A DNA stretch of 64,000 nt, taken from assembly GCA_015061165.1 (NCBI GenBank), contig SUXC01000012.1, positions 1-64,000 on the forward strand. The letters run 5' to 3'. Made by a program: the position numbers and the translations under genes. Source of the DNA: Bacteroidales bacterium (lineage in GTDB: Bacteria > Bacteroidota > Bacteroidia > Bacteroidales > Paludibacteraceae). The notes under the pieces were generated by a model. That model had not been told where the DNA came from, made no database searches, and saw nothing but the letters and a program-made list of their open reading frames with translations. Shown here one piece after another: positions 41,294 through 54,490 of this stretch. How positions within the stretch are numbered: position 1 is the stretch's first letter; each line of letters begins with the position of its first letter.

Positions 41294-41313
41294 CAGAAAA
41301 ATTGAGTGAAATT

Positions 41314-42681
41314 ATGCTATATCGCAAGAATGAAAGTCGTATTCGCGAGTTCTTTCGCAATGATAAAAGAGCTCTATTAGTGACAGGTGCAAGACAAACA
41401 GGAAAGACTTACTCTATTCGCAAAGTAGCGAAGGAGTGCTTTGATGTTGTTGTGGAGATAAACTTTGTCGAAAATCCAGAAGCCATTGCCATGTTTAGCA
41501 ATGTTAACAACTCTCAAGAACTACTCTTGAGAATTAGTGCATTCGCTAAACAACATTTAATTCCTCATAAAACAATCATCTTCTTTGACGAGGTGCAAGA
41601 ATGCAAAGAGATTGTAACTGCCATCAAATTTCTTGTGGACGAAGGTAGTTATCACTATGTACTAAGCGGATCACTATTAGGCGTAGAACTACACGATATT
41701 AGGAGTATTCCTGTCGGGTATCTATCTGTCCTTGAAATGCACCCCCTCGACTTGGAAGAGTTTGCAATCGCACAAGGAGTATCGCCTATAGTTTTGTCTC
41801 ATCTAAAAGAGTGCTACGACCAACAAAAAGCAGTTGATCATTTAGTACACAACAAGATGTTGGATCTTCTGCGTCTATATCTCATTATTGGCGGTATGCC
41901 TCATGTAGTAGAAACGTATCTAACAACTAATAATCTCAAACGAGTATTGGAAATACAAAAAGATATTATCCGTCTTTACAAACAAGATATTGCTAAATAC
42001 GACAAACAACGCAAACTAAATATAGCCGACATATATAACCTCATTCCTTCAGAACTTAATGCAAAGAACAAGAGATTCATTCTTAAACAATTGAACGAAA
42101 AAGGACGTTTCTCAAAGTACGAAAATAGTTTTGTATGGTTGCAAGATGCAGGAGTGGCAATACCTGTATATAATATTGATGAGCCCACAGTGCCATTGTT
42201 GTTAAGCAAACAGCGTAATCTATTCAAACTATTTTTGAGTGATGTAGGACTATTAGCTGCTATGTACGCAGGTAATATACAACAAAAATTACTTTCTGGA
42301 GAATTAGAAATCAATTTTGGGGCAATCTATGAGAATTTCGCCGCACAGGAATTGTACGCACATGGCTTAGCTGGTGACGAACATCAATTATTCTATTTCA
42401 ACAGCAAACAGCAAGGAGAATTAGATTTTGTAATAGAAAATGATGGCGCTATACTACCTATTGAAATCAAATCGGGCAAGGCATATCATCGTCATAATGC
42501 ACTAAACAATGTATTAAGTAATCAGCAATATGCTATACCAAAAGCCATTGTGTTTAGCAACGAAAACGTGGAAGAACAAGATAAAGTGATATATTTCCCT
42601 ATTTATATGATAATGTTCTTACAAAAACAAGAACTCAGCGATGATGCCATCTATAAATTTGATATTTCAGGCTTAAATTAA
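41314..42681 (+). CDS. AAA+ ATPase with DUF4143 C-terminal domain
   Basis: 455 residues from ATG 41314. Walker A GARQTGKT (about 25-32), Walker B TIIFFDEVQE, sensor YVLSGSLLG, then a winged-helix region and a C-terminal DUF4143 part with a PD-(D/E)XK-like pattern (FYFNSKQQGELDFVIENDGA followed by IEIKSGK). Such ATPases occur in many copies in Bacteroidetes; the function is uncertain. It sits beside phage-like and repeat-rich DNA. Three spaced 14-mers upstream suggest specific regulation. Confidence 0.85.
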   Translation: MLYRKNESRIREFFRNDKRALLVTGARQTGKTYSIRKVAKECFDVVVEINFVENPEAIAMFSNVNNSQELLLRISAFAKQHLIPHKTIIFFDEVQECKEIVTAIKFLVDEGSYHYVLSGSLLGVELHDIRSIPVGYLSVLEMHPLDLEEFAIAQGVSPIVLSHLKECYDQQKAVDHLVHNKMLDLLRLYLIIGGMPHVVETYLTTNNLKRVLEIQKDIIRLYKQDIAKYDKQRKLNIADIYNLIPSELNAKNKRFILKQLNEKGRFSKYENSFVWLQDAGVAIPVYNIDEPTVPLLLSKQRNLFKLFLSDVGLLAAMYAGNIQQKLLSGELEINFGAIYENFAAQELYAHGLAGDEHQLFYFNSKQQGELDFVIENDGAILPIEIKSGKAYHRHNALNNVLSNQQYAIPKAIVFSNENVEEQDKVIYFPIYMIMFLQKQELSDDAIYKFDISGLN

Positions 42682-48717: not shown

Positions 48718-49059
48718 CTTATACCTTTTATTAAGATTTTCTTCTATTTGCCCTTGATTATACCTACCGACCGAACACCGAGGGAAAAACCGAGACAACT
48801 CCAATAGGCAATAACGGCAAAATAGTACTTTTGTTAAGATTCCTTTCCGTTAACCTTCTCTAGCTGCTTCGTGTAAAAGACCAAGGAGAAAGCAAAGACG
48901 AACCAAGGAACGACCTTAGAACTCAAAATTACAAAAAATACTTTTTATTAAGATGTGTAATCAAAGTTTATAATCAATAGCAGGATAAGGCGCATCCATT
49001 AAGTTTCAAATCGTTAATAAATATCCTACTAAACATAGTCATAATAGCATTATATTAAA
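48718..49059. promoter_or_regulatory. Island upstream region with three TACYTTTTATTAAGAT copies
   Basis: No gene. The motif TACYTTTTATTAAGAT occurs at 48722, 48826 (one base shorter) and 48939, about 104 and 113 bp apart, all on the plus strand and ending about 105 bases before the DUF1848 start. 11-bp-like runs (accgaccgaac/accgagggaaa; accaaggagaa...accaaggaacg) fill the spaces. A classical TTTG/TAnnTTTG promoter is not clear. Confidence 0.55.
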
Positions 49060-50118
49060 ATGGCATGGGATAAAATACAAATACAACGTGAAAATGGCGA
49101 AGTGGTGGAAGCACAAGCACCAATCATTATATCTGCAAGTAGAAGTACAGATATTCCTGCTTTTTATACAGACTGGTTTTTTGACCGATTAAAAAAAGGT
49201 TATTCAGCTTGGACTAATCCGTTTAACGGAGTTAAAAGTTATATTTCATACGCGAATACTCGTTTTATTGTTTTTTGGTCAAAGAATCCTGCACCGCTAT
49301 TACCGTATTTAGGCTATTTGCGCGAGAAGAATATTAACTGTTATATACAATTTTCTCTGAATGATTACGAATCAGAAAAATTAGAGCAGGGAGTTCCACC
49401 TCTGCACTTCCGTATTAAAACATTTAAGCAGTTAGTTGATAAATTAGGTAAAGGACATGTCATTTGGCGATTTGATCCACTGATTTTAACTAGAGAGATT
49501 AGTAGTCATTCTCTTCTTAAAAAGATAGAATATATAGGAGACCAATTATATGGATATACGGACAAATTAGTATTTAGTTTCGCAGATATTATATCCTATC
49601 GAAAAGTCAAAAGTAACTTAGAGAAGAACAATATACATTATATTGATTGGACAGAGGAAGGAATGAGTGAATTCGTAAAAGGGCTGATTGAACTCAATAA
49701 GAAATGGAATTATCAATTAGCCACATGCGGAGAGAAATATCATTTTGAGGGCATAGAACACAATCGTTGTATAGATGATAGTTTGATAATACGTTTTGCA
49801 TATAACGATCCAATATTAATGAATTTCTTGAAGGTTAAACTATGCGATATGCCTTCTCCCGATATATTTGGAGAGATAGCTCCCTTACCAAAAGATGCGA
49901 TTGTACTACCTAATGGAAAATATGTAATACATGGCAACAATCAAGATAAGGGACAACGCCAATTCTGTGGTTGCATTAACAGTAAGGACATCGGAGAATA
50001 CAATACTTGCCCACATCTTTGTGAATATTGCTATGCGAACACAAGTAAAGAAATCGCATTGCAAAACTATAGGAATAGTAAACAAAATCCAAATGGTGAA
50101 ACAATAACAGGAAGATAA
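49060..50118 (+). CDS. DUF1848 protein with C-terminal CxC...CxxxCxxC cluster
   Basis: 352 residues, cytoplasmic. DUF1848 pattern: IIISASRSTDIPAFYTDWFF, GYSAWTNPFNG, FIVFWSKNPAPLLPYL, CYIQFSLNDYE, VIWRFDPLILT. The C-terminus has C303-x-C305 and C317-x3-C321-x2-C324 (CPHLCEYCYAN). CxxxCxxC is the spacing that binds the [4Fe-4S] cluster of radical SAM enzymes, and the rest fits a TIM-barrel, so a radical-SAM-like enzyme is plausible (inference). One base separates it from the next gene. The three-gene operon is A/T-richer than its surroundings. Confidence 0.8.
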   Translation: MAWDKIQIQRENGEVVEAQAPIIISASRSTDIPAFYTDWFFDRLKKGYSAWTNPFNGVKSYISYANTRFIVFWSKNPAPLLPYLGYLREKNINCYIQFSLNDYESEKLEQGVPPLHFRIKTFKQLVDKLGKGHVIWRFDPLILTREISSHSLLKKIEYIGDQLYGYTDKLVFSFADIISYRKVKSNLEKNNIHYIDWTEEGMSEFVKGLIELNKKWNYQLATCGEKYHFEGIEHNRCIDDSLIIRFAYNDPILMNFLKVKLCDMPSPDIFGEIAPLPKDAIVLPNGKYVIHGNNQDKGQRQFCGCINSKDIGEYNTCPHLCEYCYANTSKEIALQNYRNSKQNPNGETITGR

Positions 50119-50119
50119 T

Positions 50120-53100
50120 ATGAATTATTTGGAAGGATTGGATGATATATCGGATATTACATTCGATAAAATTATAAACTTGGCAAAAAATAATGTTCCT
50201 CTAGAAAGGAGAGATAATCCATGGATAGGACTAAAGCATGGCCTCAAATTACTTTCTAATGAAGATGAGTTAGCACAATATATTAGTGCATATGGTATTA
50301 TGCACCGAGAAAAAATTTATGCAGCTCTTGACACAATCCAAAATTGTGAAGAGTTCTTTTCAAAAAACATAACAATTATAGACTGGGGTTGTGGACAAGC
50401 ACTGGCAACCATGTGCTTCTATGATTATATGCGTCAAAGAGGTATTGAACCCTCTATTTCGAATGTCATTCTCATAGAGCCATCAACTATTGCTCTTCAT
50501 CGAGCAAAAGAACATATACAGAAATATTCAGCGCGACCAACTATCAAATTAGTCAACAAATTAATTGATAATGTTAATTCATCAGATATCCATACTATCA
50601 ATACTGACATTGTATTACATTTCTTTTCCAATATTTTAGATATTGACACTATTGATCTTAAAAAGCTATCTTTATTGATACAAAACGAAATAACATTTGA
50701 TCAATTCTTCTTTTGTGTAGGACCACAAAATATAGGGGCTTCTAGAATCGCCGAATTTGCGAAACTATTTAACATTACTGAAAATGATTTGATAAGTAAA
50801 CAAGAGGGATTTTTGCGTACAAGAGGAACAATCAGTATGATGACATTTAAAATTCTCTCAAATACTCCTGAGATTATCAAAGTTGAATTCTATAGAAATA
50901 AAGATAATGACACGCATTTTAACACTTTACTAAAAAGGGTCATCAAAGATTTACCTTCTTGTAATTCTTTAAGTGAAAATGCTCTCGCTTTCTATCGGGC
51001 AGTTATTTCATTAGAAAGAATGAAATCTGCTGGTATTGGCGAAGAATTCTATTATCCGTATACATTGGAAGAAGAAAATAATAACACTCACAAAGTTAAA
51101 TTCAACATTGATATATGTGACAATCCTCAGTTTGAAACTATATTTACAAGAAATTTAAACCCCTCAATTACGAAATGGCCAAAACACTTAAATATTGGAT
51201 TAAGCATAAACATAGATGATACTCGCTATCGCTTATTTGAATATATATATCCTTATACGGATTTAAAGGACATTAACATTGAGGAACAATTTATTTCTGT
51301 CAATTTAGCAATGTTTTCTATAAACTCTGACATTGCTGACAAATTAGAACTGACGGAAAACATCATTCAAGTCTTAACCGAAATATTAACAAACAAAGAA
51401 ACTACATTATCTGATCTTGAGTCAATACTGCAAGATGCTATCGGACATAATGTTTCATTGCATCCTTATTTATCATTAACTCTTTCATCTGAAGCACCAG
51501 TCTTTGCACAAATAAATTCAGAGTTAAAAAGTTTATTTCATAAGAAACCTTCAGGACTGATGTTAGATTTTTTAACAGGAAGTATTAAAAAAAATGATAT
51601 CGGCTCTATTCATGAAGACGCAATTATTAATGTTGTTGATATAGATTATAGTCAGCGGCAGGCGATTGCAACGGCACTAAATAGTAAACTTTCTGTCATC
51701 ACAGGTCCTCCTGGCACGGGTAAAACACAGATGATTGTCAATCTGCTTGCTAATGCGCTATTGCATGGCAAATCTGTACTCGTAGCAAGCAAAAACAACA
51801 AGGCTGTAAACAATATTAAGGAGCGTTTCGACAATATAGATTCTCACCAATATTTTCTACGATTTGGTTCTCGAGATCTAATAACCTCAAAATTGTTGCC
51901 CACACTGGATAGCTATGATGAAAAAATTAAAAACAATGATTATGATCCAGTATACTTAACATCAATACGTGAAGAGTATGACAAACAATGCAAACTAATT
52001 TCCGAAACACGCCAAGTACTTGGAGAAGTAATTCAACTAACTGATTTAAGACTTGATTTGGAAAATTCATTAAGGCAGTTAGTCAATCATTTTACTCAAA
52101 TAGAAAAAGAGTATCACCTATCTCTTGAGAATTTACGCGAAGAAAATAAGGAAATAGCCGAAAGTGCAGAGTCTAACAAATACAATTGGGACAAGACAGC
52201 CAATAATATTAGCAAATTGACAAATACACTTTATACTTACTCCTTTATTATAAAGAGGATTTTCTTTAATTTATTTTTGAAGAAGAAATTCTCGCAACGT
52301 TTTCAGGAAGATTTATCGTTACTTCCTACAAAAATTACAAATCACATAGAAAATGAGATTGGTACAGAGCATTTATGTGATGTATATAACTATAATCAAT
52401 TAATTCAATGTTGTACAATAGAACAAAATTGGATTAATCGCATACTTGAATATCGGAAGAATAGACATTTGATTTGTTCACGATTTGAGATTGAATGTGC
52501 TAGATTTAAAAGTGCGGAACAAGAGATTAATGAGAAGATTCATACTGTCTTAGAAAATATAAAAGAGATTTCTCAAAGCAAATCTCAAGAACAGTTGATT
52601 GAAATTATTGAGAGTGCAAAAAAGTATATCTCTTCAATCGGAGCAGACTTAGTTACTGAGTTGATAAAGTTACGACTAAATCAAAAAGATTCAGCAAATA
52701 TAATTGCTAAATACAAAAATTATTTTCCAGACCAAATACCTTGGAAGGACGAGGAATTAGAAGAGTTTACGAAAAATGCATATAATTTTATTAATATTTT
52801 TAACATTAATAGCGTCACTAGTTTATCAGTGAAAAGTGCTTTCCCATTACAAGAAAATCTCTTTGATATTGTTATTATAGATGAGGCTTCACAATGCGAT
52901 GTCGCATCTGCGTTGCCATTAATTTATCGAGCCAAACAACTTGTCGTAATTGGAGATCCGTTGCAATTAAAACATATCACTTCTATTACAACAAGCGAAG
53001 AGATGGCTATCAAAGAACATTTGTCACTTAGTGAAAATACATTTATTCGGTATGCAAGTTATTCTTTATGGGATTATTGTCATGACTTGATAACTAGTGC

Positions 53101-54124
53101 GAATATTAATAATAGACAGATAGTTTTAGATAACCACTATAGATGTCATCCACAAATCATAGGTTATTCTAATGAAATGTTCTACCAGAAACGATTAGGT
53201 CGTCCTTTGAAGGTATGTACAAACTCACAAAAGAATCATTTATCTCATAAGGGTATCATATGGGTTGATGTTGTTGGCGAACAACAAAATAATATCCGAA
53301 AAGTTAATAAGGAAGAAGTTGAAAAATCACTTTCTATTGCTGTAGAACTCGCTGAAAAGCACAAGGACATTACTATTGGTATCATTTCACCATTTAAGCA
53401 TCAAATAGAAGAAATCAATGCTCAAATCCCCGAAGAATTACGCAATAGAATAGTAGCAGATACGGTTCACAAGTTTCAGGGCGATGAACGAGATGTGATT
53501 ATTTATTCTTTGGTGGTCACAAACAATTCACCAGAACGACTAATAAAATGGATTGATATCAGTGTACCAAACCTTGTTAATGTTGCAGTTACTCGCGCCC
53601 GTTCAACGCTTTATATTGTTGGTAATCGTGACTATATAAAACAACATTCTCACAAAGAGTTACCATTAGGTCGTCTCGTTATGTATACAGAAAATAATTG
53701 TTTTGTTGAAAATATCAATCAAGAAACATTTATTATAGATACAAATGTTTTTGTAGATTGTCCAGATATACTGAATCGTATCAATCCAAATATGCAAATT
53801 ATAATATCTGCAAAAGTCGTAGATGAACTGGATAAACTCAAAGTAACTTTAGATGATTCAAAAAAAGGCAATGCAGAATTAGCTCTCAGATATCTCAATC
53901 GAAGTTTCGATGGACATCATATTAGAATGGAATGTGCAGATATGGAATATCTACCAGTAGATTTTAATAGAAAAAATCCTGACAATATGATTTTGTCTAT
54001 TGCATTAAAATACAAAAACCAGAACCCTATCCTTATCACTTCGGATAATGGTTTACAATTAAAAGCCAAGGGTATGAGAATAAATACATTAACATTACAC
54101 GATTTTCTACACAGCAACAAATGA
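50120..54124 (+). CDS. Methyltransferase-like / SF1 helicase / PIN nuclease fusion
   Basis: 1334 residues. (1) About 1-260: Rossmann methyltransferase-like domain with SAM motif IIDWGCGQALAT (Asp88) and acidic VILIEPS (Glu120), closest in look to Rsm22-type enzymes (weak). (2) About 500-1175: SF1 helicase, Walker A GPPGTGKT (529-536), a coiled-coil insertion of about 340 residues, DEASQ (921-925), GDPLQLKH, DTVHKFQGDERDVIIYS, VAVTRAR (1155-1161), as in Upf1/Dna2-like enzymes. (3) About 1200-1334: PIN domain with all four acidic residues (Asp1207, Glu1236, Asp1288, Asp1309). Stop overlaps the next start. It probably acts on RNA or DNA; the target is unknown. Confidence 0.85.
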   Translation: MNYLEGLDDISDITFDKIINLAKNNVPLERRDNPWIGLKHGLKLLSNEDELAQYISAYGIMHREKIYAALDTIQNCEEFFSKNITIIDWGCGQALATMCFYDYMRQRGIEPSISNVILIEPSTIALHRAKEHIQKYSARPTIKLVNKLIDNVNSSDIHTINTDIVLHFFSNILDIDTIDLKKLSLLIQNEITFDQFFFCVGPQNIGASRIAEFAKLFNITENDLISKQEGFLRTRGTISMMTFKILSNTPEIIKVEFYRNKDNDTHFNTLLKRVIKDLPSCNSLSENALAFYRAVISLERMKSAGIGEEFYYPYTLEEENNNTHKVKFNIDICDNPQFETIFTRNLNPSITKWPKHLNIGLSINIDDTRYRLFEYIYPYTDLKDINIEEQFISVNLAMFSINSDIADKLELTENIIQVLTEILTNKETTLSDLESILQDAIGHNVSLHPYLSLTLSSEAPVFAQINSELKSLFHKKPSGLMLDFLTGSIKKNDIGSIHEDAIINVVDIDYSQRQAIATALNSKLSVITGPPGTGKTQMIVNLLANALLHGKSVLVASKNNKAVNNIKERFDNIDSHQYFLRFGSRDLITSKLLPTLDSYDEKIKNNDYDPVYLTSIREEYDKQCKLISETRQVLGEVIQLTDLRLDLENSLRQLVNHFTQIEKEYHLSLENLREENKEIAESAESNKYNWDKTANNISKLTNTLYTYSFIIKRIFFNLFLKKKFSQRFQEDLSLLPTKITNHIENEIGTEHLCDVYNYNQLIQCCTIEQNWINRILEYRKNRHLICSRFEIECARFKSAEQEINEKIHTVLENIKEISQSKSQEQLIEIIESAKKYISSIGADLVTELIKLRLNQKDSANIIAKYKNYFPDQIPWKDEELEEFTKNAYNFINIFNINSVTSLSVKSAFPLQENLFDIVIIDEASQCDVASALPLIYRAKQLVVIGDPLQLKHITSITTSEEMAIKEHLSLSENTFIRYASYSLWDYCHDLITSANINNRQIVLDNHYRCHPQIIGYSNEMFYQKRLGRPLKVCTNSQKNHLSHKGIIWVDVVGEQQNNIRKVNKEEVEKSLSIAVELAEKHKDITIGIISPFKHQIEEINAQIPEELRNRIVADTVHKFQGDERDVIIYSLVVTNNSPERLIKWIDISVPNLVNVAVTRARSTLYIVGNRDYIKQHSHKELPLGRLVMYTENNCFVENINQETFIIDTNVFVDCPDILNRINPNMQIIISAKVVDELDKLKVTLDDSKKGNAELALRYLNRSFDGHHIRMECADMEYLPVDFNRKNPDNMILSIALKYKNQNPILITSDNGLQLKAKGMRINTLTLHDFLHSNK

Positions 54125-54414
54125 TGAATAATATAATTCAAGAATATTTGCATAAGGCTATCACAAATGGCGATACCATAACTATTAAATATATTAAACC
54201 TAATGGTGAATCTTCTATTAGGCAAATTAGTGAGATTTGCTATTCTTATGAATTTGGTGGTGATAACGAATATATTGAAGCTTTCTGCCATACTAGAAAC
54301 GAAAGAAGAACATTTAAGATAAGTCGAATCATTGATATTGAAGATATTAATAAAAAAGAAAGCATTTCTCAAGTCAAAAAGAAAAAGACTGCTTATACAG
54401 GTAACATGTTATAA
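54121..54414 (+). CDS. Small WYL-like domain protein
   Basis: 97 residues. The core TITIKYIKPNGESSIRQISE, YIEAFCHTRNERRTFKISRI matches the WYL fold (SH3-like strands with the Arg pair and 'F-x-x-x-R-I' end). WYL domains sense nucleic-acid or nucleotide ligands and regulate defence systems (family knowledge). There is no helix-turn-helix, so it may act on the upstream helicase/nuclease by protein contact. It overlaps the helicase gene (ATGA at 54121), or starts at ATG 54124. Confidence 0.72.
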   Translation: MMNNIIQEYLHKAITNGDTITIKYIKPNGESSIRQISEICYSYEFGGDNEYIEAFCHTRNERRTFKISRIIDIEDINKKESISQVKKKKTAYTGNML

Positions 54415-54459: not shown

Positions 54460-54490
54460 TTTGTAAAATCACAAATTTTCATTACCTTTG
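54460..54490 (+). promoter_or_regulatory. Promoter of recJ
   Basis: TTTG at 54460-54463, 19 bp, TACCTTTG at 54483-54490. It separates the island from the housekeeping genes to the right. Confidence 0.78.

Follow-up and report, generated by a model that had tools for sequence, protein, structure and literature searches.

What is the three-gene operon that separates a Fic gene from recJ in a gut-type Bacteroidales genome, and does it represent, as the initial annotation of this DNA proposed, an undescribed defence-like operon? The stretch analysed (hereafter the window) comprises 64,000 nucleotides, and the operon consists of three open reading frames, all on the + strand, with a 1-base gap between the first two and an ATGA overlap between the second and the third. 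The tight coupling and the gene order claimed for it were both confirmed by ORF calling.

Layout and protein parts of the operon

The features of the operon and of its edges were as follows (evidence in brackets):

48718..49059, + strand: leader 5' of the operon, carrying three direct repeats of 17 nt (repeat search)
49060..50118, + strand: DUF1848 protein, 352 aa (ORF, Pfam)
50120..54124, + strand: fusion protein of methyltransferase (MT) domain, middle region, SF1 helicase and PIN domain, 1334 aa (ORF, Pfam, alignment, PDB matches)
50120..50899, + strand: MT domain, predicted Rsm22/METTL17-like class I methyltransferase (alignment, AlphaFold2, VIA)
51611..53704, + strand: SF1 helicase core of the UPF1/SMUBP2 type, with Lys535 in Walker A (Pfam, PDB, conserved motifs)
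53726..54109, + strand: PIN nuclease domain, Asp1207 (Pfam, alignment)
54121..54414, + strand: solo WYL-domain protein, 97 aa (Pfam)
54460..54490, + strand: recJ promoter of the Bacteroidota type, TTTG-N19-TACCTTTG, outside the operon and just 3' of it, between the operon and recJ (right edge)

The operon is A/T-richer than both flanks, as had been noted: its G+C content was 0.32, vs. 0.447 in the remainder of the window, and lower than that of every other 5.4-kb segment (their minimum was 0.361). The Fic gene was identified by Pfam on the upstream side, and the operon does end where the recJ promoter begins. Between Fic and the DUF1848 gene, the leader contained three copies of ATAC-TTTTRTTAAGAT at 48721, 48824 and 48938 (span 48721-48954, spacing 103 and 114 nt), each with a -7-like box; these repeats are possible tandem promoters or operators, judging from their sequence. 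No known RNA family was found in the operon region. At 41302-42681 of the window lay a second A/T-rich stretch, in which a probable ATPase gene of the AAA/DUF4143 type was recognised by eye.

The MT domain (residues 1-260 of the fusion protein) was seen weakly by Pfam (Methyltransf_32 at 0.003, below the cut-off), and its presence was confirmed by the family alignment and the predicted fold. The alignment of 58 relatives showed the hallmark motifs DWGCGQ and FSNILDI, and the AlphaFold2 model (pLDDT 92) had a class I methyltransferase fold. In VIA, a second structural look, the best nine rows for this model were METTL17/Rsm22 (Z 17.5-14.7), and the next families reached 13.9 at most; in the predicted structure, Rsm22/METTL17 is clearly the closest fold. 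No Rsm22 model was among the 25 listed of the 33 Pfam families matched at E<=1, and the MT profile gave CmoA-like matches in PDB (0.003-0.04). The likeness to Rsm22/METTL17 seen here is one of fold. Those proteins differ in being mitochondrial ribosome assembly factors without a fused helicase.

The helicase part matched Pfam AAA_11 (1e-26) and AAA_12 (1e-30) and, among solved structures, SMUBP-2, SEN1 and UPF1, with the SF1 helicase motifs conserved among relatives. The PIN domain matched PIN_4 (5e-20), so that the proposed fusion of methyltransferase, helicase and PIN holds, the first part by alignment and predicted fold and the other two by Pfam. Family alignments placed Lys535 in the Walker A motif, Asp1207 in the PIN site and Cys317, 321 and 324 in the DUF1848 protein, all as claimed. 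The PIN acidic site was complete in the window and in one related locus (L025), and eroded in two others (L024 and L036).

The 97-aa protein matched WYL (7e-9), in agreement with the WYL core reported earlier, but lacked a helix-turn-helix; it is therefore a lone domain of the sensor-like kind rather than a WYL transcription regulator of the classical type. WYL was present only together with PIN-bearing versions (L024, L025, L036 and the window), and both were missing from the PIN-less SF1 loci. The same was seen in the window's clade on the MT tree, where PIN and WYL co-occurred and the PIN-less members had neither.

The DUF1848 protein and its AlkB-like alternative

The first gene matched Pfam DUF1848 at 1.5e-87. 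In an alignment of 55 relatives, the C-terminal CX3CX2C motif (Cys317, 321, 324) was invariant, as were four further cysteines (Cys223, 237, 303 and 305). For the AlphaFold2 model (pLDDT 94), rows 1-23 of VIA were radical-SAM enzymes throughout, with spore photoproduct lyase ranking first (Z 8.6, a moderate score; rmsd 3.7 over 182 residues) and RlmN, viperin and Cfr also present. This likeness came up in VIA only: the 50 best Foldseek rows did not include the radical-SAM enzymes, the best being generic barrels, and a search with the sequence found no relative among the solved structures in PDB. The DUF1848 protein shares with the radical-SAM superfamily the CX3CX2C motif and, in VIA, the TIM-barrel fold, but in that superfamily the motif lies near the N-terminus after strand 1. 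Because the motif is C-terminal here, a circular permutation was inferred, and the protein is predicted to be a circularly permuted radical-SAM-like enzyme. A permuted DUF1848 profile gave no radical-SAM match in PDB; permuted sequences gave weak matches to radical-SAM models of NCBIfam (best 2.7e-4). DUF1848 was mentioned nowhere in the literature searched, which took in few subscription papers and did not include the main one on UG/Abi.

A gene for an AlkB-like Fe(II)/2OG oxygenase (PF13532) replaced or accompanied DUF1848. This was seen in just 1 of the 46 loci from Bacteroidales but in 19 of 37 others, including all eight from Flavobacteriales and all four from Cytophagales. The association with these two orders had a p of 1e-7 on raw counts; on the tree, with three independent pairs of which two were informative, it was not significant. 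The oxygen-dependent AlkB-like and the oxygen-independent DUF1848 enzymes may do similar chemistry. Outside Bacteroidota, a Moraxella osloensis plasmid (L202:4754-10473) carried an MT gene followed by an AlkB-like PF13532 gene, approximately 3 kb from a viperin gene.

Mobility, recurrence and genomic setting

The operon is mobile, moves horizontally and was recently acquired in this genome. A close relative (G014) had the orthologues of Fic and recJ side by side, with a 35-bp gap and no operon between them, i.e. an empty site. In a second species (L023), the two large operon genes were nearly identical to those of the window (dS 0.03), whereas the flanking genes had long diverged (dS 0.69 for Fic and 0.82 for recJ). 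Purifying selection acts on both large genes (dN/dS of 0.15-0.17 between the window and L023); the WYL gene had too few substitutions for such a reading. In five of six relatives' loci tested, the operon was A/T-richer than its surroundings. The empty site also showed that the operon is not core genome, and the gene set recurred in L024, L025 and, up to the contig edge, L036. In another Bacteroidales genome (L028:3024-10260), a PIN-less SF1 version lay just downstream of recJ, on which account recJ may be an insertion hotspot.

A scan of GTDB genomes for the MT domain gave 288 stretches, from which the best 79 loci were read. The domain was patchily distributed, occurring in 24 of 393 genomes of the order. 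The family was found mostly in Bacteroidota, and also in Chlorobiota, Ignavibacteriota, Bacillota, Deferribacterota and Campylobacterota; two Moraxella plasmids also carried a relative, and plasmid and phage collections held few copies. In 63 of 81 cases, DUF1848 was no more than three genes away from MT (L025 is counted as lacking it, though tblastn does find it there), mostly at 0-5 bp or overlapping; it was also fused to MT in L038 and L114. The parts attached to MT (outputs) comprised an SF1 helicase, SF1-PIN with WYL, NERD-UvrD, a DpdF-like helicase (accompanied in L033 by a nuclease of the DUF559 type), leucine-rich repeats, and a four-gene form with a helicase and an ADP-ribosyltransferase/glycohydrolase (ART/ARG) protein. 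On the MT tree, output type required 12 changes, vs. a minimum of 5. What is conserved is the pairing of MT with DUF1848 (or the AlkB-like oxygenase), and helicase-PIN-WYL is one of several outputs; the gene set described initially does recur, but it is not the whole of the system, which is wider.

The co-divergence expected between DUF1848 and MT was not found (Spearman 0.04 between distances, within shuffles), so that MT and DUF1848 exchange partners and are not necessarily joined in a tight complex. DUF1848 genes without MT were numerous (80 vs. 24 of 393 genomes), and DUF1848 may have another role besides its partnership with MT. In L186, L187, L189, L190 and L195, a DUF1848 gene (355-369 aa) stood beside a 479-aa gene with no MT detected adjoining; in L189 this neighbour was M20 peptidase-like. 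A Schlafen AlbA_2/HATPase_c_4 protein, a possible further output part, followed DUF1848 directly in L223:9995-12609, and followed DUF1848 and the MT gene in L054:8871-12640. Four-gene operons in L191:8617-13590 and L192:8476-14453 consisted of DUF1848, a protein of 663-695 aa of unknown function, an SF1 helicase and a small gene, the last weakly methyltransferase-like in L191.

Relatives did lie near known defence genes. From beside the operons, at most one gene was taken on each side of a locus. The resulting 102 flanking proteins matched 156 PADLOC models at 1e-20 (BrxL, PtuA and those of retron reverse transcriptases among them), vs. 10 for 102 random genes of the same order; these counts are of models, not proteins, and one protein can match many models of one family. 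At least two loci lay inside a BREX operon, with the module between pglX and pglZ (L080:9383-14506 and L078:8340-14506). The order was brxB, brxC, a 347-aa gene, pglX, AlkB-like, MT-helicase, a 277-aa gene, pglZ and brxL in L080, and brxC, pglX, helicase, a 640-aa gene, AlkB-like, DUF1848, MT-helicase, a 241-aa gene, pglZ and brxL in L078. In L081, the genes downstream of MT matched those of the BREX-embedded loci in length (a likeness by length alone). The window operon itself had no directly adjacent known defence gene but Fic, which was present there before the insertion.

Comparison with named systems and interpretation

No system of PADLOC (copy dated 2023) or NCBIfam matched the operon beyond single domains; a recent description could have been missed, given the date of that copy and since the search covered neither the main UG/Abi paper nor most of the subscription literature. 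The claim that no named system has this set of genes stands in those two collections, and is to be qualified in that the parts are partly known: PADLOC lists its DUF1848 model as reverse-transcriptase-associated, and the UG25 reverse-transcriptase model (DRT accessory set) has the MT domain at its N-terminus. The UG25 model matched the operon by N-terminal positions 35-160 only, and the fusion protein has helicase-PIN in place of the reverse-transcriptase domain. A search of 295 genomes of the class yielded no true UG25 reverse transcriptase bearing MT.

The logic of helicase plus methyltransferase is shared with type I BREX, into whose operons the two relatives above are built, but the window operon has no adjoining brxC, pglX, pglZ or brxL, and its MT is not PglX-like; the sole strong PglZ match in the window's genome was a 517-aa frame on another contig (contig 21). 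The main text of a 2026 BREX survey does not mention radical SAM, AlkB or DUF1848. Mokosh (MkoA/MkoC) has the same type of SF1 helicase, and PADLOC MkoC matched at 1.8e-58, with the best stretch in the helicase part; its phospholipase-D and kinase parts are absent here (no PLD nuclease or kinase was among the Pfam families listed for the operon), and the operon has MT, PIN, DUF1848 and WYL instead. DISARM, Dpd and ARMADA likewise combine a modification enzyme, a large helicase and a nuclease, and many relatives carry a DpdF-like helicase, but a core of radical-SAM/AlkB plus Rsm22-like MT is not reported for them. There is no mention of radical SAM or AlkB in PMC12458937.

Since relatives lie among anti-phage genes, and sometimes inside BREX operons, the best reading is a bacterial immune module of a new type. 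The operon is probably a mobile member of an unnamed, modular invader-defence family, widespread and apparently undescribed. The initial proposal of a candidate defence-like operon is partly borne out, by recurrence, mobility, absence from the core genome and the defence/BREX setting of relatives, and limited by the partly known models. Much less confidence attaches to the chemical detail (substrate, mark and trigger). DUF1848 and MT would act on one nucleic acid, setting or reading a chemical mark; from fold likeness, the substrate would most likely be RNA or an RNA-containing structure. The helicase would translocate on invader nucleic acid that lacks (or bears) the mark, and the PIN domain would then cut. 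The WYL protein may sense a ligand and keep PIN in check, since it appears only when PIN is present. More tentatively, and somewhat against the balance of probability, the family could form an unnamed immune superfamily. At its core, a mark on nucleic acid would be made by an AlkB-like oxygenase in aerobes or, in anaerobes, by a permuted enzyme of the radical-SAM type, together with an Rsm22-like MT that brings in exchangeable effectors (a helicase-nuclease, an ADP-ribosyltransferase or a reverse transcriptase); some would be docked into BREX.

The top fold match of DUF1848 to spore photoproduct lyase, the AlkB-like partner and the ADP-ribosyltransferase/glycohydrolase partner, which also acts on a reversible modification, would also suit a mobile module for nucleic-acid repair or damage reversal. 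The SPL-like radical-SAM or AlkB-like enzyme would reverse a base lesion located by MT and helicase, PIN or other nucleases would process what is unrepairable, and the benefit would be survival of chemical or phage-made damage and not immunity. We consider this unlikely, as immunity, and not housekeeping repair, is where one typically meets residence in BREX operons and among defence genes, partners such as nucleases and Schlafen-like proteins, a recent transfer and a patchy distribution.

An abortive or toxin-antitoxin-like unit, in which a triggered PIN (or ART) harms the cell's own RNA under the control of DUF1848, MT and WYL, also seems improbable: PIN is a common domain of ribonuclease toxins, WYL is confined to the versions with PIN and the four-gene form has ART partners, but most variants have large helicases, some have no PIN at all, and the PIN site was eroded in two of the four PIN-bearing loci. 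That the genes form an accidental cluster or a metabolic operon without an immune role is very doubtful indeed; some DUF1848 genes do stand alone, but the adjacency is repeated in dozens of unrelated loci, a recurrence that makes chance unlikely, and gene fusions, mobility and the defence neighbourhood argue in the same direction.

All parts of the operon have clear catalytic motifs, so that the immune reading is open to direct mutant test. If true, the module would explain extra genes in some BREX operons, connect DUF1848, a large family without a known function, with immunity, extend radical-SAM chemistry in bacterial defence beyond viperin, and present oxygen-dependent and oxygen-independent enzymes as alternatives within one system.
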